A DNA stretch of 64,000 bases. Origin: Streptomyces sp. GS7. GTDB lineage: Bacteria; Actinomycetota; Actinomycetes; Streptomycetales; Streptomycetaceae. Where the stretch lies: the NCBI RefSeq assembly GCF_009834125.1, contig NZ_CP047146.1, forward strand, positions 6,565,501 to 6,629,500, given 5' to 3'. Position numbers and translations under genes: made by a program. Positions 32,783-51,267 of this stretch are shown here, piece by piece. The stretch's first letter is position 1. Each line of letters starts with the position of its first letter. Under the pieces are notes generated by a model. That model saw only the letters and a list, made by a program, of their open reading frames with translations. It was not told the origin of the DNA and searched no databases.

Positions 32783-32845
32783 TTCCACAGAATGGACAGT
32801 AGGTTTCGCGGAGCAGAACGTAGCTATGGCCACTGGCACCGTCAA
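32783..32845 (-). promoter_or_regulatory. Promoter with paired TTCC-N7-GGAA-type operators (racemase gene)
   Basis: On the minus strand: -35 TTGACG (32840-32845), 17-bp spacer, -10 TACGTT (32817-32822). One operator-like site, TTTC-N7-AGAA, lies at 32804-32818 and overlaps the -10 by two bases. A better one, TTCC-N7-GGAC, lies at 32783-32797, exactly 21 bp on. The same spacing occurs at hyi and aceB. Confidence 0.6.
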
Positions 32846-33018
32846 GAGATCTGCGCAAGGACGTGGCACCTTGGGACATACAGGCCCTGACCGGCGGGAA
32901 CGACTGTGCGATAGGCCGTGTGCCTGCGCGGTGTGACCGGTAGGCTGCTCCGGTCGGGCCCGGCGCCCGCAAGCACCAGAGCCGAGACCGATCAGACCCG
33001 CCCCGAAAGGAACGCGAC

Positions 33019-33822
33019 GTGCCGCCGTCCAGCGCCAGCACCTCCGCCGCCGAAGCCAAGCCCGCAGGCGCCAGCGGCGGCGTCCAGTCCCTTGAGCGCG
33101 CCTTCGACCTCCTGGAGCGGATGGCCGACGCGGGGGGCGAGGTCGGGCTGAGCGAGCTGTCCACCAGCAGCGGACTGCCGCTCCCCACCATCCACCGCCT
33201 GATGCGCACGCTCGTCGCCTGCGGCTACGTCCGGCAGCAGCCCAACCGCCGGTACGCCCTCGGCCCGCGCCTGATCCGGCTCGGTGAGAGCGCCTCGCGG
33301 CTGCTGGGCACCTGGGCGCGCCCGTTCCTGGCCCGCCTGGTGGAGGAGACCGGCGAGACCGCCAACATGGCGCTCCTCGACGGCGACGAGATCGTCTACG
33401 TGGCCCAGGTCCCGTCCCGGCACGCGGTCCGCATGTTCACCGAGGTCGGCCGCCGGGTGCTGCCGCACTCCACGGGCGTCGGCAAGGCCCTGCTGGCCAA
33501 CCACCCGCCGGAGGAGGTCCGCGCCCTGCTCGGCCGTACGGGCATGCCGGCCGCGACCGAGAAGACCATCACCGACCCGGACCGCTTCCTCGACGCGCTC
33601 GCCGAGGTCCGCCGGCTCGGCTACGCGGTCGACGACAACGAGCAGGAGATCGGCGTCCGCTGCTTCGCGGTCCCGGTGCCCAACTCCCCCACCTCGGCGG
33701 CCATCTCCATCTCGGGCCCGACGGGCCGGGTGACGGAGGCGTCCACGGACAAGATCGTGCCGGTGCTCCAGGACGTCGCGGCGCAGCTGTCGGTGGCGCT
33801 CGCCAACCAGACGCCGGCGTAA
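33019..33822 (+). CDS. allR: IclR-family regulator, AllR-like
   Basis: 267 aa from GTG 33019 with AAAGGAA upstream. A disordered Ala/Ser N-tail, then the winged helix (VQSLERAFDLLERMADAGGE, LSTSSGLPLPTIHRLMRTLV), then an IclR effector domain (TANMALLDGDEIVYVAQVPS, LPHSTGVGKALLAN, GYAVDDNEQEIGVRCFAVPV). Effector pockets of this type bind glyoxylate or ureides. In S. coelicolor an IclR protein called AllR sits with the allantoin genes and represses them; the context here is the same. It is divergent from the racemase gene. Confidence 0.85.
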   Translation: MPPSSASTSAAEAKPAGASGGVQSLERAFDLLERMADAGGEVGLSELSTSSGLPLPTIHRLMRTLVACGYVRQQPNRRYALGPRLIRLGESASRLLGTWARPFLARLVEETGETANMALLDGDEIVYVAQVPSRHAVRMFTEVGRRVLPHSTGVGKALLANHPPEEVRALLGRTGMPAATEKTITDPDRFLDALAEVRRLGYAVDDNEQEIGVRCFAVPVPNSPTSAAISISGPTGRVTEASTDKIVPVLQDVAAQLSVALANQTPA

Positions 33823-33851
33823 GGAAGCAGGGCAGGCGGTAAGGCAGGAAG

Positions 33852-33903
33852 CTGCCGGGGCGGTCGAACTCCCCCTGGGGGGTCAGCGCCCCCTCGGCAG
33901 CCG
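33852..33903. terminator. Terminator between convergent genes
   Basis: An outer imperfect stem pairs GCTGCCGGGGCG with the CGCCCC and CGGCAGC segments near 33887-33902, and an inner stem pairs ACTCCCCC with GGGGGT. It lies just after allR and overlaps the end of the gene at 33883. Confidence 0.5.
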
Positions 33904-34257
33904 GCCGAACCGGTCGATCCGCTCGCGGACCTCGGTCAGCGCGGGCGACAGCGCGCTCACCGAGCCGACCGCCCCGGCGATCAGCAGCAGCGAGCGGCGC
34001 AATCGCGGCACCTCCGGCATCCCGTGGCTCATCATCGCGTCCAGAGCGGCCAGTTCGTCATCGGCGGCGGCACGGTCCGGTAACTCCCCGGGCAGCACGG
34101 CAAGTTGGCGGCGCAGCCGGGCCACCGCCCCCCGCAGCTCCTGGATCCGCGGGTCCACGCCGACCCCGGTCACTCGTCTGTCCCTCCGCAGCTGTTCCAC
34201 AACGACGGCGCCCTCCAAGGCCGTTGCCGTTTCGCGATGCGGGACAGTTAACGCCAC
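33883..34257 (-). CDS. DUF5955-like Streptomyces protein
   Basis: 124 aa. Mostly helical: DPRIQELRGAVARLRRQLAV is amphipathic, and RRSLLLIAGAVGSVSALSPA is a hydrophobic C-terminal segment that may touch the membrane. It resembles a short Streptomyces family I recall as DUF5955, without a known function. The start at GTG 34257 is uncertain, and a later start is possible. It sits 49 bp from the kinase gene on the same strand. Confidence 0.6.
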   Translation of the reverse strand: MALTVPHRETATALEGAVVVEQLRRDRRVTGVGVDPRIQELRGAVARLRRQLAVLPGELPDRAAADDELAALDAMMSHGMPEVPRLRRSLLLIAGAVGSVSALSPALTEVRERIDRFGRLPRGR

Positions 34258-34306
34258 TCTGCGCTCCCCGCGCCATACGGAGAGCGAAAAAACCGATCAC
34301 CCGCGC

Positions 34307-36016
34307 TCAGGAACCCTGTTGCGGAGCCACCGCGTCGCGCCAGACCCGGACGTCGAGGGTCACATAGCTGCTCGGGTCCGAGTCCGCCGACCTGCCCTGG
34401 AACGTGATCAGCGCGATTGTGCCGCTGCTGGTGGTCAGGCACATCTGCGAGCCCTCGGTGAGCAGACCGATGTCCACACGCGAGGTGAAGCGGGTCTCGC
34501 TGCGGCACGTGTCGAGCGTGCCCTGCTGGCCTGGTCTGAGCAGCACCAGCTTTTCGTCAGGAGCATGGATGCCGCCGTCCGAGTTGTCGTTCCCGTCGAG
34601 CGCGGCGTCGGCCTCCTCGGCGTGCGTGTTCTTCGGCGTGACGGGGTCGTCGGCGAAGGACAGGTAGTAACCGTGGGGCAGGTCGATGCCCTCGGTGTCG
34701 ACCGGCTGCGGATCCTCCTGCGGCGACTGAGGGGTGTCGGATCCGGTGTCGCCGCCGCTCGGGGAGTCGGTGGGAGCCGGCGTTCCGGTGACGGTCTTCG
34801 GCTTGTGGTCGGCGGCCTGGCCGGTCTTCGTCCGGCCGTCGCTCTTCATCACGACGTAGACCGCGCCGCCGCCCGCGGCCGCGACGGCCAGCGCGCCGGC
34901 CAGCACCAGCGCCACGGCTGGCGCCCTGCGCTTCTTCTTGGGAGGCCGGGGAGCCGACGCGCCGGCGGACGGGGCGGACGCCGCCGCTCCGAAACCGGGC
35001 TGCGGGGTGCGGGGGTGGTCCAGCGCGGTCGGCACCGGGGCGGCGGGCGGGGCCGGCGGCTGCGCCGGGTGCGTCGCGACGCCGGCCGCGGGGGCCTCCG
35101 GGGCCGGGGCGGCGGCACGGGTGGCGAGGTCGGCGGCGACGGCGGTGGGCAGCCAGTGCTCCGGGCGGCGCAGCTGGGTCTGACCGGAGGCGGCGGCGCA
35201 GAGCGCGATGACCTCGGCGACGGACGGCCGGCCGGCCACGTCCTTGGTCAGACAGCGGCCCACCAACTCCCGTATTTCGTGGGGGATTCGGGAGAGGTCG
35301 GGCTCCTCATGGACGATGCGGTAGAGGACTCCGTGCGCGGTGCCCTTGCCGAAGGCCGGGGTGCCGGTGGCCGCGTACGCCGCGACCTGGCCGAGCGCGA
35401 AGACGTCGGCGGCGGGCGTGATCGAGGTGCCCGCCGCCTGTTCCGGCGCCATGAAGGCGGGGGTGCCGACGGTGACCCCGCTGCCGGTCAGGGAGGGGGC
35501 GTCGGCGGCGCGGGCGATCCCGAAGTCGATGACCCGCGGGCCGTCGGCGGCCAGCAGGACGTTGGACGGCTTCAGGTCGCGGTGGACGATGCCCGCGCGG
35601 TGGATGACCTGGAGCGCCTCGGCGACCCCGGCGACCAGCAACAGCACGGTGGAGACCGGGAGTTGGCCGTGTGCCGCGACGGCCTCGGCGAGCGAGGGGC
35701 CAGGGACGTAGGCGGTGGCGAGCCAGGGCGTGGCGCCGTCGGTGTCGCTGTCGATGACCGGGGCGGTGAACAGCCCCTGGACGCGCTGCGCGGCGTGCGC
35801 CTCCTGCGTGAACCGGCGGCGGAACTCAGGGTCTTCGCTGAACTCGGGCCGGATCACCTTGATGGCCACCGGGCGCCCGCCGGGCGTGTAGGAGAGATAG
35901 ACCTTGCCCATCCCGCCGGAGCCGAGCCTCGCCGTGAGGCGGTAGCCCGCGATCGCCCGCGGGTCGTCGCCCTCCAGCGGCTGGAAGATCCCGGACGGCT
36001 CCACGCTGTTCACCAC
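34307..36016 (-). CDS. Membrane-anchored Ser/Thr protein kinase
   Basis: 569 aa from GTG 36016 (GTG 36013 is also possible), with GGGGGA upstream. Kinase domain over residues ~15-280: glycine loop LGSGGMGKVY, Lys in VAIKVIRPEF, catalytic HRDLKPSN, DFGIARAAD, and TPAFMAPEQAAG. A Pro/Ala-rich linker leads to a basic patch (PPKKKRRAP) and one membrane helix. The extracellular ~150 residues are Thr/Pro/Asp-rich and then fold into a strand-rich domain with two Cys. It probably senses an outside signal. It is divergent from the gene at 36409. Confidence 0.88.
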   Translation of the reverse strand: MVNSVEPSGIFQPLEGDDPRAIAGYRLTARLGSGGMGKVYLSYTPGGRPVAIKVIRPEFSEDPEFRRRFTQEAHAAQRVQGLFTAPVIDSDTDGATPWLATAYVPGPSLAEAVAAHGQLPVSTVLLLVAGVAEALQVIHRAGIVHRDLKPSNVLLAADGPRVIDFGIARAADAPSLTGSGVTVGTPAFMAPEQAAGTSITPAADVFALGQVAAYAATGTPAFGKGTAHGVLYRIVHEEPDLSRIPHEIRELVGRCLTKDVAGRPSVAEVIALCAAASGQTQLRRPEHWLPTAVAADLATRAAAPAPEAPAAGVATHPAQPPAPPAAPVPTALDHPRTPQPGFGAAASAPSAGASAPRPPKKKRRAPAVALVLAGALAVAAAGGGAVYVVMKSDGRTKTGQAADHKPKTVTGTPAPTDSPSGGDTGSDTPQSPQEDPQPVDTEGIDLPHGYYLSFADDPVTPKNTHAEEADAALDGNDNSDGGIHAPDEKLVLLRPGQQGTLDTCRSETRFTSRVDIGLLTEGSQMCLTTSSGTIALITFQGRSADSDPSSYVTLDVRVWRDAVAPQQGS

Positions 36017-36408
36017 TACGTCCCCCGAAAGCGCCCCGCGGACCGACCGATTCGGCGGGCCTGCCACGGTCGGCGCGACGGGCGCAGATCCACACCGAGG
36101 CAGCACACTATCCGGCCTCGGTCGGACCGTGACATCCAGGTCCCGGAAGCTGATGGCAGCCCAGGCGCCGTGTCCGAAGGGGCCCGTTCGCGGCCGGTTC
36201 GCGCACTCGGCAACCCCTCCTCCGCAGCTTCGCGCCCGCGTACGCCGCGCGCGCGTGGCCGGCGCCCGGCCCGATCATGCCTCAGCACGTGCGTTCCCCC
36301 GGGCACCCGTTGGCGTGGGCGTATCCGGTACCAGGCGTACGGCCCGACGCGATGGAGCATTCTCCCTTCCGGGGAAATATCCGGCATATCACTGGATCGG
36401 AGAACGCC
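36017..36408. other. Divergent intergenic region, no gene
   Basis: This 392-bp stretch separates the kinase gene from a small plus-strand gene. Reading frames across it are Arg/Pro-rich shadows. It should contain both promoters; a CCGG-aaatat-CCGG element sits at about 36370-36383, but I cannot assign it. Confidence 0.4.
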
Positions 36409-36633
36409 ATGGAGCCCAACCCAGGCCCCGACACCGGCCCGAACTCCCGGCGCGTCAGCGTCGTACAGCTCATCTGCCGGGCGTATGGCCTCGCCGATGC
36501 GTCGGAGATCACCGAGGAGCACATACACCGCTACGTGAGCGAACACCGGCGGGTGGACGAGCGGACGCAGCAGCTCCGGGACCGGCTGCGACCGAGGATT
36601 CCGCGCCCGCGAGCGTCGGGGGACGCCGCCTGA
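36409..36633 (+). CDS. Small hypothetical protein
   Basis: 74 aa from ATG 36409 with CGGAGAA upstream. It begins with a Pro/Gly/Asn-rich tail, then a compact helical part (VVQLICRAYGLADASEITEE, HIHRYVSEHRRVDERTQQLR) and a basic C-terminus. The size and pattern recall small DNA- or protein-binding domains, but I do not recognise the family. Confidence 0.55.
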   Translation: MEPNPGPDTGPNSRRVSVVQLICRAYGLADASEITEEHIHRYVSEHRRVDERTQQLRDRLRPRIPRPRASGDAA

Positions 36634-36679
36634 CCCCGGTCGTGCGGCGCGGTGCCCTGCCATGAGGTAAGCAGTTCCC

Positions 36680-37324
36680 ATGGCACACACAGGGGAGAGC
36701 GACCGCACCGGGGGGACGGCGGGGGCCGGACGGCCCGAGGGGAAGGTGGCCGGGCTGCTGCTCGCCGCGGGCGGCGGACGGCGGCTGGGGGGACGGCCCA
36801 AGGCACTGCTCGACCACCGAGGACGCCTACTGGTCGAGCACGCCGCGGGGGTACTGCGGGACGGCGGCTGCGACCCGGTGCACATCGTGCTCGGCGCGGC
36901 CGCCGACGCGGTCCGCGAGCGGGCCGATCTGGCGGGGTACGGGACCTCGGTGAACCCGGACTGGGCACAGGGCATGGGCTCCTCGCTCCGGGTGGGCCTG
37001 GCCGCGCTGGCCGGTTCGGGGGCGGACGCGGTCGTGGTGTCGCTGGTCGACCAACCGGGCATCGGCGCCGCGGCGGTGGCCCGGGTGGTGGCCGCGTACG
37101 AGGGGCGGGACTCGCTGGCCGCGGCGGCGTACGGGGGCGGGCGGGGGCATCCGGTGCTGTTCGGCGCCGCGCGGTGGGCGGACATCGCGGCGAGCGCGGA
37201 GGGCGATCGCGGCGCGCGGGCCTATCTCCGGCGGCACGCCGCCGCGATCACACTCGTCGAGTGCGGGGACGTGGCCGAGGCGTACGACATCGACACGCCG
37301 GAGGATCTGCGGCGGCTCGAATAG
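36680..37324 (+). CDS. MobA/MocA-like nucleotidyltransferase
   Basis: 214 aa. NTP-transferase fold: VAGLLLAAGGGRRLGGRPKA at the start, GRLLVEHAAGVL, NPDWAQGMGSSLRVGLAAL, VSLVDQPGIG with the metal-binding Asp, GRGHPVLFGAARW, and the C-terminal YDIDTPEDLRRL. This is the MocA type that makes molybdopterin cytosine dinucleotide for xanthine-dehydrogenase-like enzymes. It sits inside the purine-degradation region, yet no molybdoenzyme gene is in the window. Confidence 0.8.
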   Translation: MAHTGESDRTGGTAGAGRPEGKVAGLLLAAGGGRRLGGRPKALLDHRGRLLVEHAAGVLRDGGCDPVHIVLGAAADAVRERADLAGYGTSVNPDWAQGMGSSLRVGLAALAGSGADAVVVSLVDQPGIGAAAVARVVAAYEGRDSLAAAAYGGGRGHPVLFGAARWADIAASAEGDRGARAYLRRHAAAITLVECGDVAEAYDIDTPEDLRRLE

Positions 37325-37499
37325 CGGGCGGCGCGAGAAGTGGCGGATGCCACAGCGCGGGCGGGACGGCCCCGCCCGCAAACCGGGAGCGGCCCCTGTG
37401 ACCTGCGGACGCCACCTCGCGGGGCCGGTCATGGAGCGTGACCGACGTGGCACCGAGAGCCATTCGATCTCGGCTTCTGTCGACCCGGAGAATCTCGAC
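37325..37499. other. Non-coding stretch upstream of the aceB promoter
   Basis: I see no gene in the 343 bp between the MocA-like gene and aceB. The second half holds the aceB promoter, listed separately; this first half shows nothing I can name. Confidence 0.4.
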
Positions 37500-37553
37500 A
37501 TCAACAAACCATTGAAGTTCCGCGATAAGGAAACTAGTCTCCACTGGTCAGAA
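37500..37553 (+). promoter_or_regulatory. aceB promoter carrying both operator motifs
   Basis: A degenerate copy of the first motif, ATCAACA-AAC-CATTGAA, lies at 37500-37516 and overlaps a -35 TTGAAG (37512-37517). After 17 bp comes -10 TAGTCT (37535-37540). In the spacer is a perfect TTCC-N7-GGAA (37518-37532), and 21 bp on is CTCC-N7-AGAA (37539-37553), which starts at the end of the -10. Both motif families therefore meet at one promoter. Confidence 0.65.
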
Positions 37554-37667
37554 GCGCCCTGAACCCGAACGGCGCCCGCGACCGTATCTCGGAGCCCGCG
37601 GCACCCCGTGCCGCCCTGTGGCGCCCCGGCGGCCGCCAGGCACCGCCGCTGAATGGAGTGACAGCTC

Positions 37668-39308
<1,641 letters not shown>

Positions 39309-39341
39309 TCCGACACACCGCCCGGCATCCGCCGCAACGGC

Positions 39342-39389
39342 CGAAGGGCCGGTACGCACCGCAACACCGCGGTGCGTACCGGCCCTTCG
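39342..39389. terminator. aceB terminator
   Basis: A perfect 19-bp stem (39342-39360 with 39371-39389) and a 10-nt loop, starting 33 bp after the aceB stop. It probably also blocks read-through from the opposite gene. Confidence 0.88.
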
Positions 39390-39514
39390 CCCTGCCGCTC
39401 GCCCCCTTCAGAAGCGAAGGCACCTGTCGCGGCCGATCCGGGGGGTGCCGGGGACCACGCCCTCGATGGAGGGCGGCACGGTGCCGGTCGGCACTTCGTC
39501 GGACGGCTCCGGCG

Positions 39515-40881
39515 TCATGTTGCGGCGCCGGCGCGGTGCGTGGCGGCGTACTCGGTGAAGAAGGCGGCCTCGGCGAGGAGGGCGGCGCGGAGTTCGGACA
39601 GCAGGACGCGTTCGTTGGGGCCGTGGAGGTTGCAGAGGTTGTCCTCGGCGCCGAAGAGCAGGATCTCGGCGCCCGGTGCCGCCTTGGCCAGCCCGTTGAC
39701 CAGGGGGATGGAACCGCCGGACGCGGCGTGTACGGGGTCGGCGCCCCAGGCGCGGCGCAGGGCGGTGCGGGCGGCGCGGTAGGCGGGGCCGCCGGTGGCG
39801 GCCTCGTACCCCGGACCGGTGTCGCCCGGGGTGACGGTGAGCGGGATGCCGAAGGGGCGCAGGCTCCGCAGATGGCGGACGAGCGCGGCCTGCGCCTCCT
39901 TGGGGTCCTGCCGGGGGTGCACGCGGAGGTTGAGCTTGGCGCGGGCGTGCGGGACGACGGCGGAGGCGGCGCGGTCGACGGGCGGGGCGTCCAGGCCGAT
40001 GACGGTGATCGCCGGGCCGCTCCAGAGGCGTTCGCCGAGGCCGCCGGAGCCGATGAGGGGGGTGTCGCGGCGGACGCCGGCCAGCTCGCGGAACTCGTCG
40101 TCGGTGAGGTCGGTGCCGGACCAGGGTTCGCGGCGCAGGCCCTCGACGGCGACGTCGCCGTGGACGTCGTGGAGGGTGGCGAGGGCCTTGACGAGGACGA
40201 GCAGGGCGTCGGGGGCGGCGCCGCCGTACTCGCCGCTGTGGACGGCGGCGCCGAGGGTGCGGGCCTCGACGAAGACCTCGGCGGCGCCGCGCAGGGCGGT
40301 GGTGAGGGTGGGGGTGCCGGGCCGGATGCTGCCGGTGTCGGCGATGATCATCGCGTCGCAGGCGAAGAGGTCCGGGTCGGTGGGCGGGTAGTCGTCGAAG
40401 GCGCTGCCGTACTCCTCCTGGCCCTCGATGACGATCCTGAGGCCGACGGGCGGCCGGCCGCCGAACGCGCGCAGCGCGCCGATATGGACCATCACGTTGG
40501 CCTTGTCGTCGGCGATACCGCGGGCGCGGATGCCGCCCTCGATGTCCGTGGGCTCGAACGGCGGGGAGTCCCAGAGGTGTTCGCCGCCGGGCGGCTGGAC
40601 GTCGTAGTGGGCGTAGAGGAGGACGGTGGGGGCGTCGGGGGTGGGCGGGGGAGGGTGGCGGTGATGACCGGGGCGGTGTCGGGGAGGTTCAGCTCGCCGA
40701 TGTCGGTGACGCCTGCGTCTCTGAGGAGGGCGACGACGAGGTCGCGGGCCTGGAGGACCGGTTCGGGCGAGAAGCCGGGGAAGGCGATGGACGGGATGGC
40801 GGCGAGGCGTTTGAGGTCGGCGCACAGGTCGTCCATCAGGGCGTCGACGGTGGACTCCAGCGCGTTGGCGTCGTGGTGCAC
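39515..40881 (-). pseudogene. M20-family metallopeptidase (dipeptidase) with a single-base frameshift
   Basis: Two overlapping frames make one protein of about 455 aa. From GTG 40881 the first frame gives HHDANALESTVDALMDDLCA through GELNLPDTAPVITATL. The second frame takes over with TVLLYAHYDVQPPGGEHLWD (metal-binding HxD) and runs to the end: IVIEGQEEYGSAF, IIADTGSIRPG, GGSIPLVNGLA and LCNLHGPNE. The switch falls at a run of five G/C pairs (40647-40651); one more base would restore the frame. This may be a sequencing error, a true lesion or a slippage site. Confidence 0.8.
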
Positions 40882-41145: not shown

Positions 41146-41171
41146 AGAGCGCGGTAAGGGGCGGAGGGAAC

Positions 41172-42816: not shown

Positions 42817-43680
42817 ATGCGCACCCGATCGATAGCCAGAGCCCTGCCCAAGAGCGCCACCCGCTTCGCGCTCGGCCTCGCGCTGCTCGCCGTCCCCGCA
42901 ACCGCCGTCGCCACCGCGGCCGTTCCCGCCGGCCGGGCGCCCGCGCGTACCGCTCCGCACGCCGTACGGGCCGGTGGCCTCGACGACCCGGCGAAGAAGG
43001 AGATCGCCATGCAGCTGGTCTCCAGCGCGGAGAACTCCTCGCTCGACTGGAAGGCCCAGTACGGGTACATCGAGGACATCGGCGACGGCCGCGGCTACAC
43101 CGGCGGCATCATCGGGTTCACCTCCGGTACCCACGACATGCTGCAGCTCGTCGAGCTCTACACGCAGCGCAAGCCGGACAACGTCCTCGCCAGGTACCTG
43201 CCGGCGCTGCGCAGGGTCGACGGCAGCGGTTCCCACGACGGGCTGGACCCGGACTACCCGAAGGACTGGAAGGCGGCGGCGCAGGACCCCGGCTTCCGGC
43301 AGGCGCAGAACGACGAGCGGGACCGGGTGTACTTCAACCCGGCGGTCGAGCAGGGCAAGGCCGACGGGGTCGGCGTCCTGGGGCAGTTCGCGTACTACGA
43401 CGCGATCGTGATGCACGGCGACGGCAGCGACCCGACCGGCTTCTCCGGCATCCGCAAGCGCGCGCAGGCCCAGGCGAAGCCGCCGTCCCAGGGCGGCGAC
43501 GAGACGGCGTATCTGAACGCCTTCCTCGACGCCCGGGTGTGGGCGATGAAGCAGGAGCAGGCGCACAGCGACACCAGCCGGGTGGACACCGAGCAGCGGG
43601 TGTTCCTGAACGACGGCAACCTCGATCTGCACACCCCGCTGGACTGGAAGGTGTACGGCGACAGCTACCACATCGGCTGA
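42817..43680 (+). CDS. csn: Secreted chitosanase, GH46 family
   Basis: 287 aa from ATG 42817 with AGGAGG upstream. A signal peptide of about 40-50 residues is followed by the GH46 domain. The catalytic Glu is at 72 (SSAENSSLDW) and the catalytic Asp at 90 (GDGRGYTGGIIGF), 18 residues apart as in known Streptomyces chitosanases. Later marks are YLPALRRVDGSGSHDGLDPD and ALKLF-free helical segments ending in VYGDSYHIG. It cuts chitosan to oligomers outside the cell. A CsnR-type box upstream predicts induction by chitosan oligomers. Confidence 0.93.
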   Translation: MRTRSIARALPKSATRFALGLALLAVPATAVATAAVPAGRAPARTAPHAVRAGGLDDPAKKEIAMQLVSSAENSSLDWKAQYGYIEDIGDGRGYTGGIIGFTSGTHDMLQLVELYTQRKPDNVLARYLPALRRVDGSGSHDGLDPDYPKDWKAAAQDPGFRQAQNDERDRVYFNPAVEQGKADGVGVLGQFAYYDAIVMHGDGSDPTGFSGIRKRAQAQAKPPSQGGDETAYLNAFLDARVWAMKQEQAHSDTSRVDTEQRVFLNDGNLDLHTPLDWKVYGDSYHIG

Positions 43681-43714
43681 CCGGAGCCGCGGCGGACGGC
43701 GGTCCGCGCACGCC

Positions 43715-43762
43715 CAACGGCCCGTACGGGTACGGCGGTTGCCGTTCCCCTACGGGCCGTTG
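43715..43762. terminator. Bidirectional terminator between csn and the purine permease
   Basis: CAACGGCCCGTACGGG at 43715-43730 pairs with CCCCTACGGGCCGTTG at 43747-43762, with one mismatch and a 16-nt loop, between two converging genes. Confidence 0.8.
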
Positions 43763-43782
43763 CGATGGGGCGGGGCGGTCGG

Positions 43783-45243
43783 TCAGTGCGCGGGCGAGGC
43801 CGCGGTCTCGCCGTCGTCCATCCGGCCGCGTTCGGGCTGGTGCGGGATCTCCGCGGCGGACGGGGGTGTGTGGCCGTCGGCCGCCGGCGCGTCCGGCGCG
43901 GACGGGTCCTTGCGGCCGAAGTGGTTGAAGGCGAGGTTGAGGACGATGGCGACCAGGCAGCCGGTGCTGATCCCGGAGTCCAGGACGACCAGGAGGTCCT
44001 TGGGGAAGTTGTGGTAGAACTCCGGCGCCGCGATCGGGATCAGGCCGATGCCGAGGGCGGCGGCGACGATCAGCGCGTTCTCGCCCTTCTCCATCGCGGC
44101 GGAGGCCAGCGTCTGGATGCCGCTGGCGGCCACCGAGCCGAACAGGACGATGCCGGCGCCACCGAGGACCGGCAGCGGGACCAGCGAGATGACCGAGGCG
44201 GCGACCGGGCACAGGCCCATGACGATCAGGATCGCCCCACTGGTGGCCACGACGAAGCGGCTGCGGACCTTGGTCATCGCGACCAGGCCGATGTTCTGTG
44301 CGAAGGCGCTGTTGGCGAAGCCGTTGAACAGCGGGCTGAGGGCGGTGCCGAGGGTGTCGGCGCGCAGGCCGCCCTCGATGGTGCGCTCGTCCGCCGGGCG
44401 GTCCACGATCTTGCCGAGGGCGAGCATGTCGGCCGTCGACTCGGTCATGCAGACCAGCATCACGATGCACATCGAGATGATCGCGGCGAGGTCGAACCGC
44501 GGGGCGCCGAAGTGGAACGGCGTCGGGAAGCCGATCAGGCTCGCCTGGGTGAGGACCGAGAAGTGGGTGATGCCGACGGGTATCGCGACCACGGTGCCGG
44601 CGATCAGGCCGAGCAGGATGGCGATCTGCTGGAGGAACCCGCGCAGCACCCGGCGCAGCGCGAGCACGATCAGGAAGGTGACCGCGGCCATCGCGATGTT
44701 CTTCAACGAGCCGTAGTCCGCGGCCTGTTCGTTGCCGCCCTCGGACCAGCGGAAGGCCACCGGGAGCAGCGAGACGCCGATCAGGGTGATGACGGTGCCG
44801 GTGACCACCGGCGGGAAGAAGCGGACGAGCCGGGAGAAGTAGGGGGCGAGGAGGAAGCCCAGGACACCGGCGACGATGACCGCGCCGAAGATCACCGGCA
44901 GCGCGTCGTGCGGGCTGTGCTGCTTGGCGATGGCCACCATGGGCGTGACACCGGCGAACGAGACGCCGTTGACGAACGGGAGCTTGGCCCCGACCTTCCA
45001 GAACCCCAGGGTCTGGAGGAGGGTGGCGATCCCGGCGGTGAAGAGGCTGGCACCCATGAGGAACGCGGTCTCGGTGGGGCTGAGCCCGCAGGCGGGCCCG
45101 ACGATCATCGGCGGGGCCACCACACCCGCATACATTGCGGCCACATGCTGGAGGCCGCTGGTGAACATCTTGAAGGGCGGGAGGGTTTCGTCGACCGGAT
45201 GCTTCCGGTCCTCCTCCGGCTTCTGCCCGGTAATTGCGGCCAC
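43783..45243 (-). CDS. NCS2-family purine permease (xanthine/urate type)
   Basis: 486 aa from GTG 45243 with AGGAGG upstream. Twelve to fourteen hydrophobic segments. NCS2 marks: GLQHVAAMYAGVVAPPMIVG at the N-terminus, CGLSPTETAFLMGASLFTAG, and the signature with QNIGLVAMTKVRSRFVV. A polar ~55-residue C-tail is cytoplasmic. It imports xanthine or uric acid with a cation. A terminator separates it from the deaminase gene upstream, so it may have its own promoter. Confidence 0.87.
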   Translation of the reverse strand: MAAITGQKPEEDRKHPVDETLPPFKMFTSGLQHVAAMYAGVVAPPMIVGPACGLSPTETAFLMGASLFTAGIATLLQTLGFWKVGAKLPFVNGVSFAGVTPMVAIAKQHSPHDALPVIFGAVIVAGVLGFLLAPYFSRLVRFFPPVVTGTVITLIGVSLLPVAFRWSEGGNEQAADYGSLKNIAMAAVTFLIVLALRRVLRGFLQQIAILLGLIAGTVVAIPVGITHFSVLTQASLIGFPTPFHFGAPRFDLAAIISMCIVMLVCMTESTADMLALGKIVDRPADERTIEGGLRADTLGTALSPLFNGFANSAFAQNIGLVAMTKVRSRFVVATSGAILIVMGLCPVAASVISLVPLPVLGGAGIVLFGSVAASGIQTLASAAMEKGENALIVAAALGIGLIPIAAPEFYHNFPKDLLVVLDSGISTGCLVAIVLNLAFNHFGRKDPSAPDAPAADGHTPPSAAEIPHQPERGRMDDGETAASPAH

Positions 45244-45438
45244 TGCGGGCCTCCTGTCGATTTCTGCTCCGCCGGGGGAGGCGGTGCGAGGCTGTCACGG
45301 AGGGCGTGCGATGTGGTGCGTGGTGCCGGAAGTCGCGCTGGTGAGCGTGCAGATGGCCGCGCTTGTGGCGCGTGGGCGGCGATGTGGGGGATGACCGGCC
45401 CGGGGGTACGAGGTGATCCCGCACCCCCGGGGTCCGGC

Positions 45439-45467
45439 GCTTGCGGATCCCTGTCGGATCCACAAGC
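45439..45467 (-). terminator. Terminator after the deaminase gene
   Basis: GCTTGCGGATCC (45439-45450) pairs with GGATCCACAAGC (45456-45467), one mismatch and a 5-nt loop, about 60 bp past the deaminase stop. A second, weaker stem (CCGGGGGT with ACCCCCGG, 45400-45430) follows it. Confidence 0.7.
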
Positions 45468-45526
45468 TCAGCCGGGAGCCGTCCCTCCCGACCGAGTCTT
45501 GGGTTGTCGTGCCGCGGCCGGGGGGA

Positions 45527-46930
45527 TCAGCCCTCGGCGGCGATACGGGCCAGACGCTGGGCCTCGTCCCGCGCGGAGCGGGCGATGGCGTCCTCGTCGA
45601 CGTTGGTGAGGTGGTTGTCCTCGACGACCGGCTTGCCGTCGACCAGCGACAGCGTGACCGGGGCCGCCGCTCCGAAGACCAGGGCGGTCACCGGGTCGGC
45701 GATCGAGGAGTGGGCGAGGGTGTCCAGCTTCCACAGGACCAGGTCGGCGAGCTTGCCCGGCTCCAGGGAGCCGATCTCGCGGGTCCGGCCGAGGACCTGG
45801 GCACCGCCGTAGGTGCCGAGCCGCAGCGCCTTGCGGGCGTTGAGGGCGGCCTCCTTGTGGGCGCCGAGGCGGTTGATGAGCAGCGCGTTGCGCAGCTCGG
45901 TGTGGAGTTCGCCGGACTCGTTGGAGGCGGTGCCGTCGACGCCGAGGCCGACCGGGACGCCGGCCGCGAGCATGTCCGGGACCCGGGCGATGCCGGCGGC
46001 GAGGCGGGCGTTGGAGGACGGGCAGTGCGCCACGCCGGTCTTCGTACGGGCGAAGGCGGCGATGTCGGAGTCGTTCATGTGGACGCAGTGCGCCATCCAC
46101 ACGTCGTCACCGAGCCAGCCGGTGGACTCGAAGTAGTCGGTCGGGCCCATGCCGAACAGCTCGTGGCAGAACTTCTCCTCCTCCACGGTCTCCGAGCCGT
46201 GGGTGTGCATCCGCACGCCCTTGCGGCGGGCGAGCGCGGCGCCCTCCTTGAGGAGTTCGGTGGAGATGGAGAACGGGGAGCAGGGGGCGGCGGCGATGTG
46301 CACCATCGAGCCGAACGAGGCGTCGTGGTGCTTGTCGATGGCCTCTTCGGTGGCGATCAGGGCGCCCTCGGTGGTCTCCACCGCGAAGTCCGGCGGCAGT
46401 CCGCCGTCCTTCTCGCTGCGGTCCATGGAGCCGCGGGCGAGGGTGATCCGCGCGCCGATCTCGGCGACCGCGGCCAGTTCGGCGCCGACGAGGTCGCCGG
46501 AGCCCTTGGGGAAGACGTAGTGGTGGTCGGAGGCGGTGGTGACGCCACCCCTGACCATCATGCCGAGCGAGCCCTGGGTGGCCGCGGTGAGCATCTGCGC
46601 GTCGATGCGGGCCCAGGTCGGGTAGAGCGCGACCAGCCAGTTGAAGAGGTTGTGGTCGGTGGCCAGGCCACGGGTGATCCACTGGTAGAAGTGGTGGTGG
46701 GTGTTGATCAGGCCCGGGGTGGCCAGGTGGCCGGTCCCGTCGACGCGGCGGACCACGTTCGCAAGGCCCTCGGGGGCCTTTCCCGCGCCCAGCGACTCGA
46801 TGACGTTGTCCGCGACGACGACATGACCGCTGGCGTACTCGGTGTCGTCGGCGTCGACGGTCGCGATGGCACAGTTCTCGATGACGATGCGCTGCTTCAC
46901 CGCGCTGTCAGGGGCTGCCGATGCTGCCAT
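45527..46930 (-). CDS. 8-Oxoguanine / guanine deaminase (amidohydrolase family)
   Basis: 467 aa from ATG 46930 with GAGGAAAG upstream. Amidohydrolase metal site TPGLINTHHHFYQWITRGLA (HxH), then the substrate loop (TASDHHYVFPKGSGD), MHTHGSETVEEEKFCHELFG, WMAHCVHMNDSDI, and the catalytic Asp in VPVGLGVDGTASNESG. The long HHHFYQW form is that of the 8-oxoguanine deaminase group, so it may make urate directly from 8-oxoguanine, or xanthine from guanine. It lies in the operon with urate oxidase and a permease. Confidence 0.85.
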   Translation of the reverse strand: MAASAAPDSAVKQRIVIENCAIATVDADDTEYASGHVVVADNVIESLGAGKAPEGLANVVRRVDGTGHLATPGLINTHHHFYQWITRGLATDHNLFNWLVALYPTWARIDAQMLTAATQGSLGMMVRGGVTTASDHHYVFPKGSGDLVGAELAAVAEIGARITLARGSMDRSEKDGGLPPDFAVETTEGALIATEEAIDKHHDASFGSMVHIAAAPCSPFSISTELLKEGAALARRKGVRMHTHGSETVEEEKFCHELFGMGPTDYFESTGWLGDDVWMAHCVHMNDSDIAAFARTKTGVAHCPSSNARLAAGIARVPDMLAAGVPVGLGVDGTASNESGELHTELRNALLINRLGAHKEAALNARKALRLGTYGGAQVLGRTREIGSLEPGKLADLVLWKLDTLAHSSIADPVTALVFGAAAPVTLSLVDGKPVVEDNHLTNVDEDAIARSARDEAQRLARIAAEG

Positions 46931-46975
46931 GGGGCTTTCCTCGTTCTTTCGTGGCGATGTGGGCACGGCAAGGCC

Positions 46976-48379
46976 CTACGGGATTTGAGTGCCGGAGCCG
47001 GACGACGCGGCTGACAGTACCGCTGCCCGTGGTGTGCTCCGGGTGCCGAGATGATGGAAGAACAGGTTGAGCAGGACCGCGGTCAGGGCTCCGGCGCTGA
47101 TCCCGGAGCCGAGCACGGTCTGTGCCCAGGCGGGGAACCCGGCGTAGAAGGTCGGCGCGGCGAGCGGGATGATGCCCGCGCCGAGCGACACGGCCACCAG
47201 GATGATGTTGGAGCTGTCGTCGAGTCCGGCCTCGGAGAGCGTACGGATGCCGCTGACCGCGATCGAGCCGAAGAGCACGATGCCCGCGCCGCCCAGCACC
47301 GGCATCGGTACGACGGAGACCACGGCGCCCAGGACGGGGAAGGCGCCGAGCACCAGGAGCACCGCGCCGGCCAGTGCGACGACATAGCGGCTGCGGACCC
47401 GGGTGAGCGAGACCACGCCGACGTTCTGCGCGAAGGCGCTGGTCGGGAAGCCGCCGAAGACCGGCCCGAGGAGGGTGGCGATGCCGTCGGTGCGCAGTCC
47501 ACGGGTGATGGTGTCGCCGGTGGTCGGGCGGTCGCAGATCTCGCCGAGGGCCAGCATCCCGGCCGACGACTCGGTCATCAGCACCAGCATCACGATGCAC
47601 AGCGAGAGGATCGCGGCGGGCTGGAATTCCGGCGGGCCGAAGGAGAACGGGGTGGGCAGTGCGGCGACCGGGGCCGAGCGCAGCCCGTCGAAGCTCGCCA
47701 TCCCGAAGGGGATCGCGGCCAGCGTGCCGGCGACCAGGCCGATCAGCAGCGCAATCTGCCTGACGAAGCCCTTGGTGAAGCGCTGGATCAGCAGCACCAC
47801 GAGGAGGGTGAAGCCGGCCAGTGCCAGGTTCTGCGGGGAGCCGAAGTCGGCGGCGTGCTTGTCGCCGCCCTGTGCCCAGCCGACCGGTACGGGCATCAGC
47901 GTGACCCCGATGAGGGTGATCACGACGCCGGTGACCAGCGGCGGGAAGAAGCGGAGCAGTCTCCCGAAGAACGGTCCGACCGCCAGGCAGAACACCCCGG
48001 CGACCATCACCGCGCCGTAGATGGCGGGGAGTTGGTGGCCCTTGGCGGTGGTCTCGGCGATGGCGAGCATCGGGGTGATGCCGGCGGAGCTGGCCGCGTT
48101 GACGAACGGCAGGCGGTTGCCGGCGAACGTGCGGACGCCGAGCGTCTGCAACAGCGTTGCGCACCCGGCGATGAGCAGGCTGGCGGCGATGAGCCGGGTC
48201 CGGCCCGCGGTGTCCAGGCCGACGGCCTGGCCGACGATGAGCGGAGGGGTGACGACGCCGGCGTACATGGCGGCGATGTGCTGGAGGGCGGCCGGGACGA
48301 GCCGCTTCACTGCCGGCTTCTCGTCCACCGGATGGACCGGTGGGACGGGGTGGTGCGGGGCTAGCTCTTGCTGTGCCAT
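46976..48379 (-). CDS. NCS2-family purine permease (urate/xanthine type), second copy
   Basis: 467 aa from ATG 48379. N-terminal ALQHIAAMYAGVVTPPLIVG and the signature QNVGVVSLTRVRSRYVV parallel the permease at 43783, of which it is a diverged paralogue. Twelve to fourteen membrane segments. Its place between urate oxidase and the deaminase suggests urate or xanthine uptake. The two permeases likely differ in substrate preference. Confidence 0.87.
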   Translation of the reverse strand: MAQQELAPHHPVPPVHPVDEKPAVKRLVPAALQHIAAMYAGVVTPPLIVGQAVGLDTAGRTRLIAASLLIAGCATLLQTLGVRTFAGNRLPFVNAASSAGITPMLAIAETTAKGHQLPAIYGAVMVAGVFCLAVGPFFGRLLRFFPPLVTGVVITLIGVTLMPVPVGWAQGGDKHAADFGSPQNLALAGFTLLVVLLIQRFTKGFVRQIALLIGLVAGTLAAIPFGMASFDGLRSAPVAALPTPFSFGPPEFQPAAILSLCIVMLVLMTESSAGMLALGEICDRPTTGDTITRGLRTDGIATLLGPVFGGFPTSAFAQNVGVVSLTRVRSRYVVALAGAVLLVLGAFPVLGAVVSVVPMPVLGGAGIVLFGSIAVSGIRTLSEAGLDDSSNIILVAVSLGAGIIPLAAPTFYAGFPAWAQTVLGSGISAGALTAVLLNLFFHHLGTRSTPRAAVLSAASSGSGTQIP

Positions 48380-48461
48380 GGGTCGTTCCCCTCGGGTTTC
48401 GCGTCCCCTCCCCGCTGCGGGGTGGGGAGGGGACACGAGGCACGGCGTTGCGTCGGAACCG

Positions 48462-49385
48462 TCAGAGGTTCGTCAGATCCATCGGGATCCGGGCTTCGAC
48501 ACCGTCGCGCAGAACAGTGGCTTCGATCAGTCCGTACGGGCGGTCCGCCGCGTAGTAGACCTCGTTGTCGTTCTTGAGCCCGAAGGGCTCCAGGTCCACG
48601 AGGAAGTGGTGCTTGTTGGGCAGCGAGAAGCGGATCTCGTCGACCTCGGACCTGTTGTTGATGATGCGCGCGCCCATCTGGTACAGGGTCTGCTGCAGCG
48701 AGAGGCTGTAGGTCTCGGCGAACGCCTGCAGCATGTGCTTCTTGACCTGCTCGTACGAACGCTCCCAGTTGGGCATCCGCTGCTCGTCGTCGGTCCAGTT
48801 GAACCGCCAGCGGCTGGACACCTGCGTGGCGAGGATGCGGTCGTACGCCTCCTTCAAGGTCGTGTACTTGTCCTTGATGTACCCCCAGAACTCCGAGTTG
48901 GTGGAGTTCATGACGACCAGGTCCTTGAGGCCGGAGATGACCTGCCACTGCTCGCCGTCGTAGGTGATCTCGGTCAGCCGGGTCTCCTGGCCCTTGCGGA
49001 CGAAGGAGTGCTTGACGTCATCGGAGCCGATGAACCGCGAGTTGGCGTCCGAGGTCTCGATCCGCTCCCAGGCGTACTCCTCGATCCGGATGCGGGCCCT
49101 CTTGATCGGCTCCTGGCTGGTCACGAAGTGCCGGGCCAGGTGGATGCCGAACTGCTCGGCCGACTCGATCCCGTACTCCTTGGCGAAGGCGTACACGGTG
49201 TTCTTGGTCGTGTCGGTGGGCAGGCAGTTGGCGTTGGAGCCGGAGAGGTGGACCTCCTCCAGGTCGCCGGAGAGCGCGACCGAGACGTTCAGGTCCTTGA
49301 TGTGGTGCGTGGTGCCGTCGCGAGTGATCTTGACGACGCGGTTTTCCGCTTTGCCGTACTGGTTCTGGCCGAGAATCGTGGGCAT
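48462..49385 (-). CDS. uox: Urate oxidase (uricase)
   Basis: 307 aa from ATG 49385. Two T-fold units. LGQNQYGKAENRVVKI carries the catalytic Lys, PTDTTKNTVYAFAKE the catalytic Thr, and the second half has WRFNWTDDEQRMPNWERS and the active-site His in SLPNKHHFLVDL. It turns urate and oxygen into 5-hydroxyisourate with release of hydrogen peroxide, which the catalase encoded at 54526 can remove. It is 7 bp after the HIU hydrolase gene. Confidence 0.94.
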   Translation of the reverse strand: MPTILGQNQYGKAENRVVKITRDGTTHHIKDLNVSVALSGDLEEVHLSGSNANCLPTDTTKNTVYAFAKEYGIESAEQFGIHLARHFVTSQEPIKRARIRIEEYAWERIETSDANSRFIGSDDVKHSFVRKGQETRLTEITYDGEQWQVISGLKDLVVMNSTNSEFWGYIKDKYTTLKEAYDRILATQVSSRWRFNWTDDEQRMPNWERSYEQVKKHMLQAFAETYSLSLQQTLYQMGARIINNRSEVDEIRFSLPNKHHFLVDLEPFGLKNDNEVYYAADRPYGLIEATVLRDGVEARIPMDLTNL

Positions 49386-49392
49386 GTCGGTG

Positions 49393-49806
49393 CTAGCTCC
49401 CTCGGTATACGGAGTAGCCGAACGGGTTGAGCAGCAGCGGTACGTGATAGTGCTCGCCCGGCTTGACGGCAAAGGTGATTGCCACCTCCGGGAAGAAAGC
49501 TCCGCTGTCCCTTACGCGGGGGGCGTCCTGCTGTTCCTCGGCTTGCTGGTGGATGCTGTGCTGTTCGGAAACGAAGTACTCCTCGACCGCGAAGTCGAGG
49601 CGGACATGGGTGGTGCCTTCCGGCAGGGCCGGGAGATCCTTGCAGCGCCCGTCCCCGTCGGTCCTGGACGCGCCGTGGGCGGTCCAGGCGCCGTCGCTGC
49701 CGGAGCGCACCGCGAGCGTGAGGGCGACGCCCTCGGCGGGGCGGCCCACGCTGGTGTCCAGGATGTGCGTGGACACCGACGTCGGTGCAGCCGTCTCGCT
49801 GCTCAT
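49393..49806 (-). CDS. uraH: 5-Hydroxyisourate hydrolase (transthyretin-like)
   Basis: 137 aa. Family ends are intact: VSTHILDTSVGRPAEGVALT at the start with the catalytic His, FFPEVAITF and HYHVPLLLNPFGYSVYRGS at the end with the defining YRGS tail. It converts 5-hydroxyisourate to OHCU. Its start overlaps the OHCU decarboxylase stop by 4 bp. Confidence 0.94.
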   Translation of the reverse strand: MSSETAAPTSVSTHILDTSVGRPAEGVALTLAVRSGSDGAWTAHGASRTDGDGRCKDLPALPEGTTHVRLDFAVEEYFVSEQHSIHQQAEEQQDAPRVRDSGAFFPEVAITFAVKPGEHYHVPLLLNPFGYSVYRGS

Positions 49807-50315
49807 GCTGCGTCTCCTTCTGCGATGCGGGTCAGGCGAATGCGGTTGATCTTGCCGAGCTCCACACGAACGATCTCTCGTTCCTGTTCCGGCGTGTTGT
49901 CGATCCGGTTACGGACCGCGTCGCGCATCTGCTCACCGGTACGGCCGGTGGCGCAGATCAGGAAGACGTGGCCGAACTTCTCCTGGTAGGCCAGGTTCAG
50001 TTCGAGCATCTCCTCCTTGAGTGCGTCGGAGGCGCCCGACATTCCGCTCTGCTCGCGGTTCGAGGTCGCGTCTCCCGGCTTCGGCCGGCCGATGGGCGGG
50101 TGCCCGGCCATCGCCTCGGCCAGGTCCTCCGCGGACAGCTCGGCCATGGCGGCGTCGCTCGCGGCGAACAGGGCGTCGGTGGTGGCGTAGGGGCGCTGGG
50201 CGAGAACCTCGCTTCCCCAGGACCGGCTGGCACACACCTCGTGCAGTGCGGCCCGAGCCGTACCGTCGTCGGCGGCGTTGAACCGGGAGAGCCCTTGGGG
50301 CGTACTCGAAGACAC
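49803..50315 (-). CDS. uraD: OHCU decarboxylase
   Basis: 170 aa from GTG 50315 with GGAGG upstream. GHPPIGRPKPGDATSNREQS holds the catalytic His and the conserved Glu, and LAYQEKFGHVFLICATGRTG the C-terminal core. It gives S-allantoin from OHCU. It is the first gene of the run uraD-uraH-uox-permease-deaminase, behind a promoter whose -35 overlaps a TTCAACA-N3-TGTTGA palindrome. Confidence 0.94.
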   Translation of the reverse strand: MSSSTPQGLSRFNAADDGTARAALHEVCASRSWGSEVLAQRPYATTDALFAASDAAMAELSAEDLAEAMAGHPPIGRPKPGDATSNREQSGMSGASDALKEEMLELNLAYQEKFGHVFLICATGRTGEQMRDAVRNRIDNTPEQEREIVRVELGKINRIRLTRIAEGDAA

Positions 50316-50361
50316 GGGAAGCCTCCGTGGCCTGGTGCTGGACAGCCTGTTTGGCTGGAAA

Positions 50362-50403
50362 CAGCTAAGACCCCCGGCAACATCACGTCAACACTTTGTT
50401 GAA
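50362..50403 (-). promoter_or_regulatory. uraD promoter with TTCAACA-type operator
   Basis: On the minus strand: operator TTCAACA-AAG-TGTTGAC (50387-50403), overlapping a -35 TTGACG (50386-50391), 18-bp spacer, -10 TAGCTG (50362-50367). The layout is identical to that at katA. Confidence 0.75.
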
Positions 50404-50484
50404 AAGTCGGCGACACAAAAGCCGCCGCCCGGTGATTCGGGGCGGCGGCTTCGAGCCTGCTGCGGGCGTTCCGGCCGGTTCGAC

Positions 50485-50865
50485 TCAGTCGGCGTCCTTC
50501 GCGGCGGATTCCCGGTTCAGGTAGTTGTAAACGGTGAAACGGCTGACACCGAGCGCCCCGGCGACGGTTTCCACGCCGTGCCGGACGGAGAACGCGCCCC
50601 GCGTCTCCAGTATGCGCACGACCGACTGCTTGGTCTTGCGGTCCAGCTCCGACAGCGGCACACCGTGCCGGCGCTCCAGCTCGGCGAGAATGTGGTCGAG
50701 CGAATCCGACAGGTGGGGAAGCCGTACGGCCACCCGGTCCTGCCCCTCCCAGGTCAGCACGACGTCGTCGCCCCGGGCCTGGTCCGGCGCGACCAGTCGT
50801 CCGCCCATCGCATCCACCAGCGGCTTGACCGCCTGGACGAACGGGTGGTCGGCGGGCTCGGTCAC
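50485..50865 (-). CDS. Small HTH regulator (YheO/DauR-like C-terminal domain)
   Basis: 126 aa from GTG 50865. The C-terminal half reads LSELDRKTKQSVVRILETRG, then VAGALGVSRFTVYNYLNRES, the helix-turn-helix of the YheO/DauR family, but the PAS-like N-terminal sensor is replaced by a shorter domain (DDVVLTWEGQDRVAVRLPHL). It lies between uraD and the thiamine-binding-like gene, overlapping the latter by 4 bp. It could control the neighbouring glyoxylate genes. Confidence 0.75.
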   Translation of the reverse strand: MTEPADHPFVQAVKPLVDAMGGRLVAPDQARGDDVVLTWEGQDRVAVRLPHLSDSLDHILAELERRHGVPLSELDRKTKQSVVRILETRGAFSVRHGVETVAGALGVSRFTVYNYLNRESAAKDAD

Positions 50866-51146
50866 GACTCGTCCCCCTCGTCCTCGGCCGCGCCCGCCCC
50901 GTGGGCATCCGCGATCACATTGACCTGGAGGGAGACGCGGGTCGCGCCGGCCTCCAGGGATTCGCGCAGCAGGGCGTTCACCGCCGCCAGTACCCGGCCC
51001 GCCTCCCCCTCGGCCGTGTTGCCGAAGGGCCCGACGTCGACGGCGTCCAGCCCGGCGCCGGTGACGATGTCCCGCGCCACCACCGCATGATCCGGCGCCT
51101 CGTCCAGATCGAACGGCTCCGTCGTGAACTCAACTCTCAATCGCAC
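50862..51146 (-). CDS. Thiamine-binding (YkoF/MTH1187-like) protein
   Basis: 94 aa from GTG 51146; a TTG three codons earlier is less likely. It reads VRLRVEFTTEPFDLDE, AGLDAVDVGPFGNTAEGEAG and TRVSLQVNVI, the small ferredoxin-like fold of the thiamine-binding family. It overlaps the HTH gene by 4 bp (GTGA). The nearby Gcl-like gene belongs to a thiamine-diphosphate enzyme family, so a cofactor link is attractive but inferred. Confidence 0.7.
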   Translation of the reverse strand: MRLRVEFTTEPFDLDEAPDHAVVARDIVTGAGLDAVDVGPFGNTAEGEAGRVLAAVNALLRESLEAGATRVSLQVNVIADAHGAGAAEDEGDES

Positions 51147-51202
51147 GCCGTTCAACCTACGCGCGGTTCGGCCCGGCCACCAGAAATTGGCTCCGGCCCC
51201 TC

Positions 51203-51267
51203 TTGACAGCCTCCCCGCTCGCCCGGCAGTGTTCCATTACGCAGAAAGTAAGTTCCACAATCCGGAA
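51203..51267 (+). promoter_or_regulatory. hyi promoter with paired TTCC-N7-GGAA operators
   Basis: -35 TTGACA (51203-51208), 18-bp spacer, -10 CAGTGT (51227-51232). Site one, TTCC-N7-AGAA, is at 51232-51246 and starts on the last base of the -10. Site two, TTCC-N7-GGAA, is at 51253-51267, exactly 21 bp on, and runs into the RBS. Confidence 0.65.

Follow-up and report, generated by a model that had tools for sequence, protein, structure and literature searches.

AllR is a published IclR-family repressor of the allantoin genes in Streptomyces. In S. coelicolor it reportedly binds the promoters of allantoin genes, its binding is said to be hindered by allantoate and less so by glyoxylate, and it is also said to affect antibiotic production via hyi. 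Here I analyse a 64-kb stretch (hereafter the window) of the 9.07-Mb genome of the soil bacterium Streptomyces sp. GS7, which holds the purine/allantoin region, and in which pairs of 15-bp palindromes of the type TTCC-N7-GGAA, with starts exactly 21 bp apart, lie at the promoters of hyi, of a racemase gene and of aceB. These pairs are very probably tandem operators of AllR, where two dimers would sit on one face of the DNA and block the promoter.

The S. coelicolor regulator is the subject of Navone et al. 2015 (AEM 81:6649), as referred to in PMC12772271. GS7 resembles that system in that orthologues of the IclR-family protein encoded at 33019 carry the name AllR, and in that the putative targets here (a racemase-transporter-allB run, aceB, hyi and gcl) fit its pathway; GS7 is set apart by a racemase and a transporter heading the allB run, by a duplicated hyi-glxR segment, and by a DUF6986 gene with a pair of its own. 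The sites can also be compared with those of other IclR-family proteins, as given in PMC8222616. There, the WTT-11-AAW subgroup is described with the consensus TTYCRYW3RYGRAA and two palindromes 18–22 nt apart, mainly 19–21. The GS7 palindromes are of this type and their spacing falls in this range, but the GS7-type pairs are set at exactly 21 bp in nearly every locus examined, and at hyi and aceB one half-site is always the weak AGAA, in a constant position. The E. coli AllR and IclR proteins (palindromes KTTGGAAWAWTWTTCCAAC; TGGAAATNATTTCCA, same source) share the family and the allantoin/glyoxylate theme, whereas the arrangement of their palindromes, as presented there, differs from the GS7 pairs; the 33019 protein scores 125.3 bits against the E. 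coli-type AllR model (NF007548, cut-off 406) and 160 bits against IclR (cut-off 380). The motif listed there for GenR of Corynebacterium glutamicum, ATTCC-N7(5)-GGAAT, is similar to that of GS7, but GenR regulates the use of 3-hydroxybenzoate/gentisate, and the genes behind the GS7 pairs belong to another pathway.

The original prediction, made from the letters of the window, had placed three pairs with starts 21 bp apart, and direct reading finds all of them letter for letter: TTCCATTACGCAGAA at 51232 and TTCCACAATCCGGAA at 51253 (hyi), TTCCACAGAATGGAC at 32783 and TTTCGCGGAGCAGAA at 32804 (racemase/allR), and TTCCGCGATAAGGAA at 37518 and CTCCACTGGTCAGAA at 37539 (aceB). Each pair combines a strong site with a weaker one bearing an AGAA half, as had been noticed, with the refinement that the weak racemase site is off in both halves (TTTC/AGAA). 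It had further been claimed that one site starts on the last one or two bases of the -10 hexamer, and this holds at all three promoters as read from the sequence, the promoters themselves being predicted. For hyi, the putative promoter TTGACA-N18-CAGTGT has one base in common with the first site; for the racemase, TTGACG-N17-TACGTT on the minus strand has two bases in common with its site; for aceB, the last two bases of TTGAAG-N17-TAGTCT are the start of the second site.

I counted pairs in the window over spacings of 15 to 40, with a cut-off of my own choosing (7/8 or better for one site, 6/8 or better for its partner). This gave four pairs at spacing 21, versus two at the other 25 spacings combined; in 300 dinucleotide-preserving shuffles, the mean at spacing 21 was 0.06 and the maximum 2. 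The pair counts are far above the shuffles and the reversed-pattern controls, in agreement with the earlier statement that chance is unlikely. A pair matrix was then learned from other genomes (20 distinct pairs from hyi, 29 from aceB and 62 from allR). At spacing 21, the three reported pairs rank as the top three in the window, with scores of 39.7 (hyi), 29.0 (racemase) and 28.3 (aceB), the next one scoring 14.0; because orthologous promoters are in the training set, this ranking is support and not an independent test. The highest score at any other spacing is 25.3 (spacing 16), formed by the second hyi site and an overlapping stretch.

Comparison with related genomes, which the original prediction had proposed as a check, shows that the pairs are conserved in related Streptomyces. 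For allR and aceB, a genome scan supplied the sample, namely its 80 top-ranking loci from named Streptomyces in which an AllR relative is encoded. In these loci, spacing 21 has 152 pairs of at least 13/16, whereas no other spacing between 10 and 60 has more than 15; with the reversed motif there are 8 at spacing 21, and no more than 25 at any other. Upstream of aceB, 21 outscores every other of the 16 spacings compared in 63/63 loci (those of the 80 in which the aceB start and the 300 bp ahead of it are present). Upstream of allR, it is the unique best of 16 in 74 of the 78 loci with enough DNA ahead of the gene, tied in two, and beaten by 18 in two. For these spacing tests, as for the consensus pool and the matrix, pairs were picked as the best at spacing 21, and the one allR pair in 78 below 13/16 was excluded from pool and matrix. 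For hyi, a protein search of 33 genomes found the gene in 28, and 30 of 34 places were fetched as loci, all of which carry a 21-bp pair of at least 13/16. Two of the 30 are the GS7 copies and 24 are stand-alone loci from other genomes; of the remaining four, one is truncated at the end of its contig and three, at gcl-linked hyi copies, have weaker pairs.

The register of the pairs to the putative promoters is equally constant. In all 24 stand-alone hyi loci of other genomes the distance from TTGACA to the pair is the same; at aceB, TTGAA[CG] abuts the first site and TANTNT occupies a constant place in 63/63 relatives; and TAC[GA]TT is found at the place matching the racemase -10 in at least 72 of 76 relatives. 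The weak AGAA half is present in 24/24 hyi loci (found by protein search) and in 63/63 aceB loci; being kept as such at both promoters, it does not look like decay. At hyi and allB the spacing is constant despite wide variation in the six bases between the sites. A strict pair pattern occurs in 24 of 25 same-genus genomes (GS7 included) and in none of 16 genomes of other genera, with a reversed control at 0/41, and in 30 fetched loci the pair sites fall at allB/allR, hyi and gcl. Eighteen of the other-genome loci (12 hyi, 6 gcl) were found by the pattern itself, and the half-site letters there are not evidence. The pooled consensus, from 124 distinct pairs including 17 of these pattern-found loci (11 hyi, 6 gcl), is TTCCRYWNWRYGGAA-like. 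On the allR side, most relatives have TGGA ahead of the pair, and many have a TAAGAT- or TAGAAT-like sequence at the inter-site spacer, so the allR-proximal pair may, judging from these elements, also serve allR itself.

The scan of the whole genome with the paired matrix at spacing 21, another of the proposed checks, places the reported pairs within the top six of the 50 scored sites (of 52): gcl 40.8, hyi 39.7, DUF6986 32.4, genome position 3461413 29.8, racemase 29.0 and aceB 28.3. The gcl and DUF6986 promoters are outside the training set of the matrix. Counting mismatches across the genome had been tried as a test (52 sites, versus 15 for the reversed pattern), but since the coding phase raises the number of TTCC..GGAA matches, the matrix took its place. 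The gcl pair ends ∼57 bp ahead of a glyoxylate carboligase-like gene. Thirty DUF6986 loci of the genus were fetched and all but L170 evaluated; of these 29 upstream regions (that of GS7 among them), 18 score highest at spacing 21 alone, and in a further 9 the top score at 21 is shared with at least one other spacing. When applied to 21 DUF6986 loci, the matrix gives a score of at least 22 for 19, with L151 and L159 lower. On this sequence evidence, the DUF6986 gene is a candidate new glyoxylate-linked target of AllR.

Further IclR-type pairs were observed at L001:5036 and L001:5168 (genome 5585035 and 5585167; matrix 20.7 and 22.6), among genes that are presumably nonribosomal-peptide-like. 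The pair at L002:5414 (genome 3461413) lies between a sodium:solute symporter gene and an SDR gene, and its score is above those of racemase and aceB. Among the 150 of 628 first-look candidates that were scored, none with an above-cut-off HTH_IclR match is found less than 50 kb from the gcl, DUF6986, 3461413 or 5585035 pair. If AllR binds the pairs at 5585035, 5585167 and 3461413, its regulon would be wider than one pathway.

The IclR-family product encoded at 33019 had been put forward as the candidate binder, and this proposal is supported by its domains, by the names of its orthologues, by the position of its gene next to a pair, and by the fit of the consensus. The protein possesses the HTH_IclR and IclR_C domains (PF09339, PF01614). 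Two orthologues, P0022 (86% identity) and P0105 (83%), carry the NCBI name 'allantoin degradation transcriptional regulator AllR', and orthologues with 81–100% identity are present in 25/25 same-genus genomes (GS7 included). Its gene is divergent from the racemase-transporter-allB run, and in relatives from that run or from allB, where the contig reaches. The best NCBIfam score of the protein, against BhcR (NF045644), is below the equivalog cut-off (203.9 versus 350 bits). The pooled consensus fits the WTT-11-AAW/TTYCRYW3RYGRAA group of the family, and the 21-bp spacing is within its 18–22 nt.

The pairs, their spacing, their register and their conservation are observed; the best reading of them is that they belong to promoters that AllR would bind as a tetramer and repress. 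Two AllR dimers would occupy the two 15-bp palindromes, whose centres are 21 bp apart, corresponding to two helical turns, and because of this distance the dimers would lie on the same DNA face, able to touch and form a tetramer. Relative to the putative promoters, the pairs take two positions. At hyi, gcl, DUF6986 and in the racemase/allB direction, the pair starts at or next to the end of the putative -10 and would cover the start region; at aceB, the first site fills the spacer between -35 and -10, and the -10 lies between the sites. In either placement, AllR would exclude or trap RNA polymerase. Allantoate or glyoxylate, the reported effectors of the S. coelicolor AllR, would loosen AllR, so that allantoin breakdown and glyoxylate disposal open together.

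Several observations weigh against AllR as the binder of such pairs, or against the regularity of the pairs. GS7 has other IclR genes, with a number of strong IclR-type hits plus numerous weaker HTH hits, and there are other IclR proteins with the same binding consensus, for instance GenR with its ATTCC-N7(5)-GGAAT (PMC8222616). The relatives share ancestry, and the locus counts are not independent events. In one same-genus genome (G042), an AllR of 81% identity is present, yet no strict pair was found, and none near allR; in G057, from another family, the AllR is 70% identical, with only a weak 21-bp pair (13) and a better one at another spacing (14). When entire 3.8-kb allR loci are taken, together with their coding sequence, 21 beats every other spacing in just 20 of 29 (25 same-genus, 4 others), and two of the 29 DUF6986 upstream regions are exceptions, with no pair seen in L151 and a preference for 26 in L175. 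The wealth of IclR genes raises the possibility that another member of the family in GS7, rather than the 33019 product, binds the pairs; the consensus is common across the family (PMC8222616), and AllR paralogues of 39–43% identity occur in 22 of the 25 same-genus genomes. However, the allR gene adjoins one pair, and close orthologues are present in every one of these genomes, with strict pairs in 24 of the 25. The best-conserved pairs also head allantoin and glyoxylate genes, which is the published domain of AllR, and a different binder appears improbable.

If AllR does bind the pairs, each site could still be bound by one dimer independently, with the 21 bp reflecting promoter geometry rather than cooperation. 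A fixed register to the -10 could alone set the spacing within one promoter type, and in some relatives the catalase promoter has a single strong AllR-like site near the corresponding place. However, the aceB and hyi placements differ in their -10 register and yet both keep 21 bp, while the bases between the sites are free to vary at hyi and allB, which makes independent binding unlikely. As for coding bias, TTC and GAA codons in GC-rich DNA could create such pairs by chance: single sites, at up to one mismatch, exceed the reversed pattern by a factor of 1.5 (2295 versus 1536), a spacing of 21 is divisible by three, and low scores prevail among the 50 genome pairs scored. This explanation stands for most of the low-scoring genome hits, but for the three reported pairs, which are intergenic, top of the window at spacing 21 by the matrix, and conserved, it is refuted, and I give it practically no weight there. 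Tandem binding by AllR is retained as the preferred reading, and the features on which it is built are collected in Table 1.

Table 1. Genes, paired sites, putative promoter elements and second palindrome (window positions, except where a locus or genome position is given; relatives as described in the text).
Feature	Position	Strand	Basis or remark
allR, IclR-family regulator, candidate binder	33019..33822	+	PF09339 + PF01614; AllR-named orthologues
Asp/Glu/hydantoin racemase, first gene of racemase-NCS1 transporter-allB run	31966..32760	-	PF01177
allB, allantoinase	28855..30225	-	TIGR03178 above cut-off
aceB, malate synthase A	37668..39308	+	TIGR01344 above cut-off
hyi, hydroxypyruvate isomerase	51282..52121	+	best match TIGR03234, below cut-off (301 vs 353 bits)
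glxR, 2-hydroxy-3-oxopropionate reductase	52180..53076	+	TIGR01505 above cut-off
racemase/allR strong site, TTCC-N7-GGAC	32783..32797	.	direct reading; kept in relatives
racemase/allR weak site, TTTC-N7-AGAA, 21 bp from partner start	32804..32818	.	direct reading; relatives
Putative -10 TACGTT of racemase-transporter promoter, last 2 bases in site	32817..32822	-	direct reading
Putative -35 TTGACG of racemase promoter	32840-32845	-	direct reading
aceB strong site, TTCC-N7-GGAA, within -35/-10 spacer	37518..37532	.	direct reading; 63/63 relatives
aceB weak site, CTCC-N7-AGAA	37539..37553	.	direct reading; AGAA in 63/63 relatives
Putative -35 TTGAAG of aceB, abuts first site	37512..37517	+	TTGAA[CG] in 63/63
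Putative -10 TAGTCT of aceB, last 2 bases = first 2 of second site	37535..37540	+	TANTNT in 63/63
Putative -35 TTGACA of hyi	51203..51208	+	fixed position in 24/24 loci
Putative -10 CAGTGT of hyi, last base = first of first site	51227..51232	+	GCANNNT forms there in relatives
hyi weak site, TTCC-N7-AGAA	51232..51246	.	AGAA in 24/24
hyi strong site, TTCC-N7-GGAA	51253..51267	.	direct reading; relatives
DUF6986 pair	L004:5042-5077 (genome 3083041)
DUF6986/HpcH-like gene	L004:5130-6413		function unassigned
Second palindrome, TTCAACA-N4-GTTGA[AC]	30321-30337 (allB), 50387-50403 (uricase operon), 54438-54454 (catalase)		upstream of each

On the minus strand, the racemase gene is followed by the NCS1 transporter gene, by allB, and by an open reading frame that I take to be allantoicase-like. 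Beside this run are the IclR gene (33019), aceB, uricase, OHCU decarboxylase, hyi, glxR and catalase genes, and the same region also has two xanthine/uracil-type permeases. Adjoining glxR, at 53103-54320 (plus strand), is a gene for a thiamine-pyrophosphate enzyme with matches to the N and C domains and none to the central domain; judging from this domain pattern, its product looks like a shortened relative of glyoxylate carboligase. The hyi-glxR segment is present in two copies, at 51281-53076 of the window and at genome ∼5684.8-5686.6 kb (L003, L087). These have 1796 bp in common with one mismatch, in a block that runs from one base before the hyi start codon to the end of glxR. In another genome (G003), the two copies are 98.5% alike, and only 86–89% alike to those of GS7. 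It is as if the copies were kept equal by gene conversion, with differing promoters.

allB has its own proximal promoter-like stretch, which carries a palindrome unlike the pair sites. This second palindrome recurs in the window (Table 1) and in relatives: TTCAACAAA[GC]TGTTGAC overlaps a -35-like element of the uricase operon in 29/29 evaluated loci (own included; 30 fetched), the same kind of overlap is seen at catalase, with a near-identical palindrome, in 17 of 18 relatives, and TTCAACAG-N3-GTTGAA lies ahead of allB in 77/77 evaluated loci (62 exact, 15 with one mismatch). A pattern covering it is found in 24 of 25 same-genus genomes and in 2 of 16 others, with a reversed control at 0/41; each genome has a few matches elsewhere too, and when one mismatch is allowed GS7 has 14 sites (three of them in the window) versus 7 for the control. 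By its letters, the second palindrome is distinct from the putative AllR motif, and its distribution suggests that urate breakdown, along with the peroxide this yields, has a second regulator. A gene for a small HTH_22 protein (50485-50865, minus strand) lies just before the uricase operon and, by its position, this protein is a candidate binder of the second palindrome. It has a match in 31/31 same-genus genomes, one of them short and with a stop, and a few others with a stop in the match; the OHCU decarboxylase gene is beside it in 29 of 30 fetched loci. At DUF6986, the stretch of the pair also resembles the second palindrome in L157, L159 and L160. TTCAACA-N3-TGTTGAA was also observed ∼8-9 bp ahead of the start of a ∼125-aa open reading frame, itself no obvious purine gene, in L242, L243, L244, L245 and L258, and these sites may belong to another regulator.

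The catalase promoter was considered for AllR as well. The fourth pair counted at spacing 21 in the window, at 54478 (7/8 and 6/8), was rejected as an AllR pair on a matrix score of 12.1; among 18 catalase promoters, from the window and 17 relatives, 21 is the sole best spacing in 3 and shares first place in 5. A single 7/8 or 8/8 site near the -10 is found in the window and in 6 of the 17 relatives, and weak or single-site control of catalase by AllR is possible on this basis.

A broader proposal, to which I would give slightly less than an even chance, is that the AllR pair is a composite operator in which the invariant weak AGAA half tunes release by the effector, that the regulon reaches a DUF6986 aldolase-like gene acting on glyoxylate, and that a second regulator shares the pathway via the other palindrome at uricase, catalase and allB. 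Of all this, AllR itself, the pathway it controls and the tandem arrangement of IclR-family sites were known before. A literature search of limited coverage returned no title or abstract giving a Streptomyces AllR operator or the second palindrome. What is added here, unless Navone et al. 2015 already give it, is the fixed spacing of 21 bp, the constancy of the weak half, the two ways of placing a pair at a promoter, and DUF6986 as a member.

For a repressor that links purine nitrogen salvage to carbon use, this would be an exact operator rule across the Streptomyces examined. With it, targets of AllR can be predicted from sequence, and it has already brought up gcl and the DUF6986 gene. The conserved weak half makes effector tuning in IclR tetramers a testable question.

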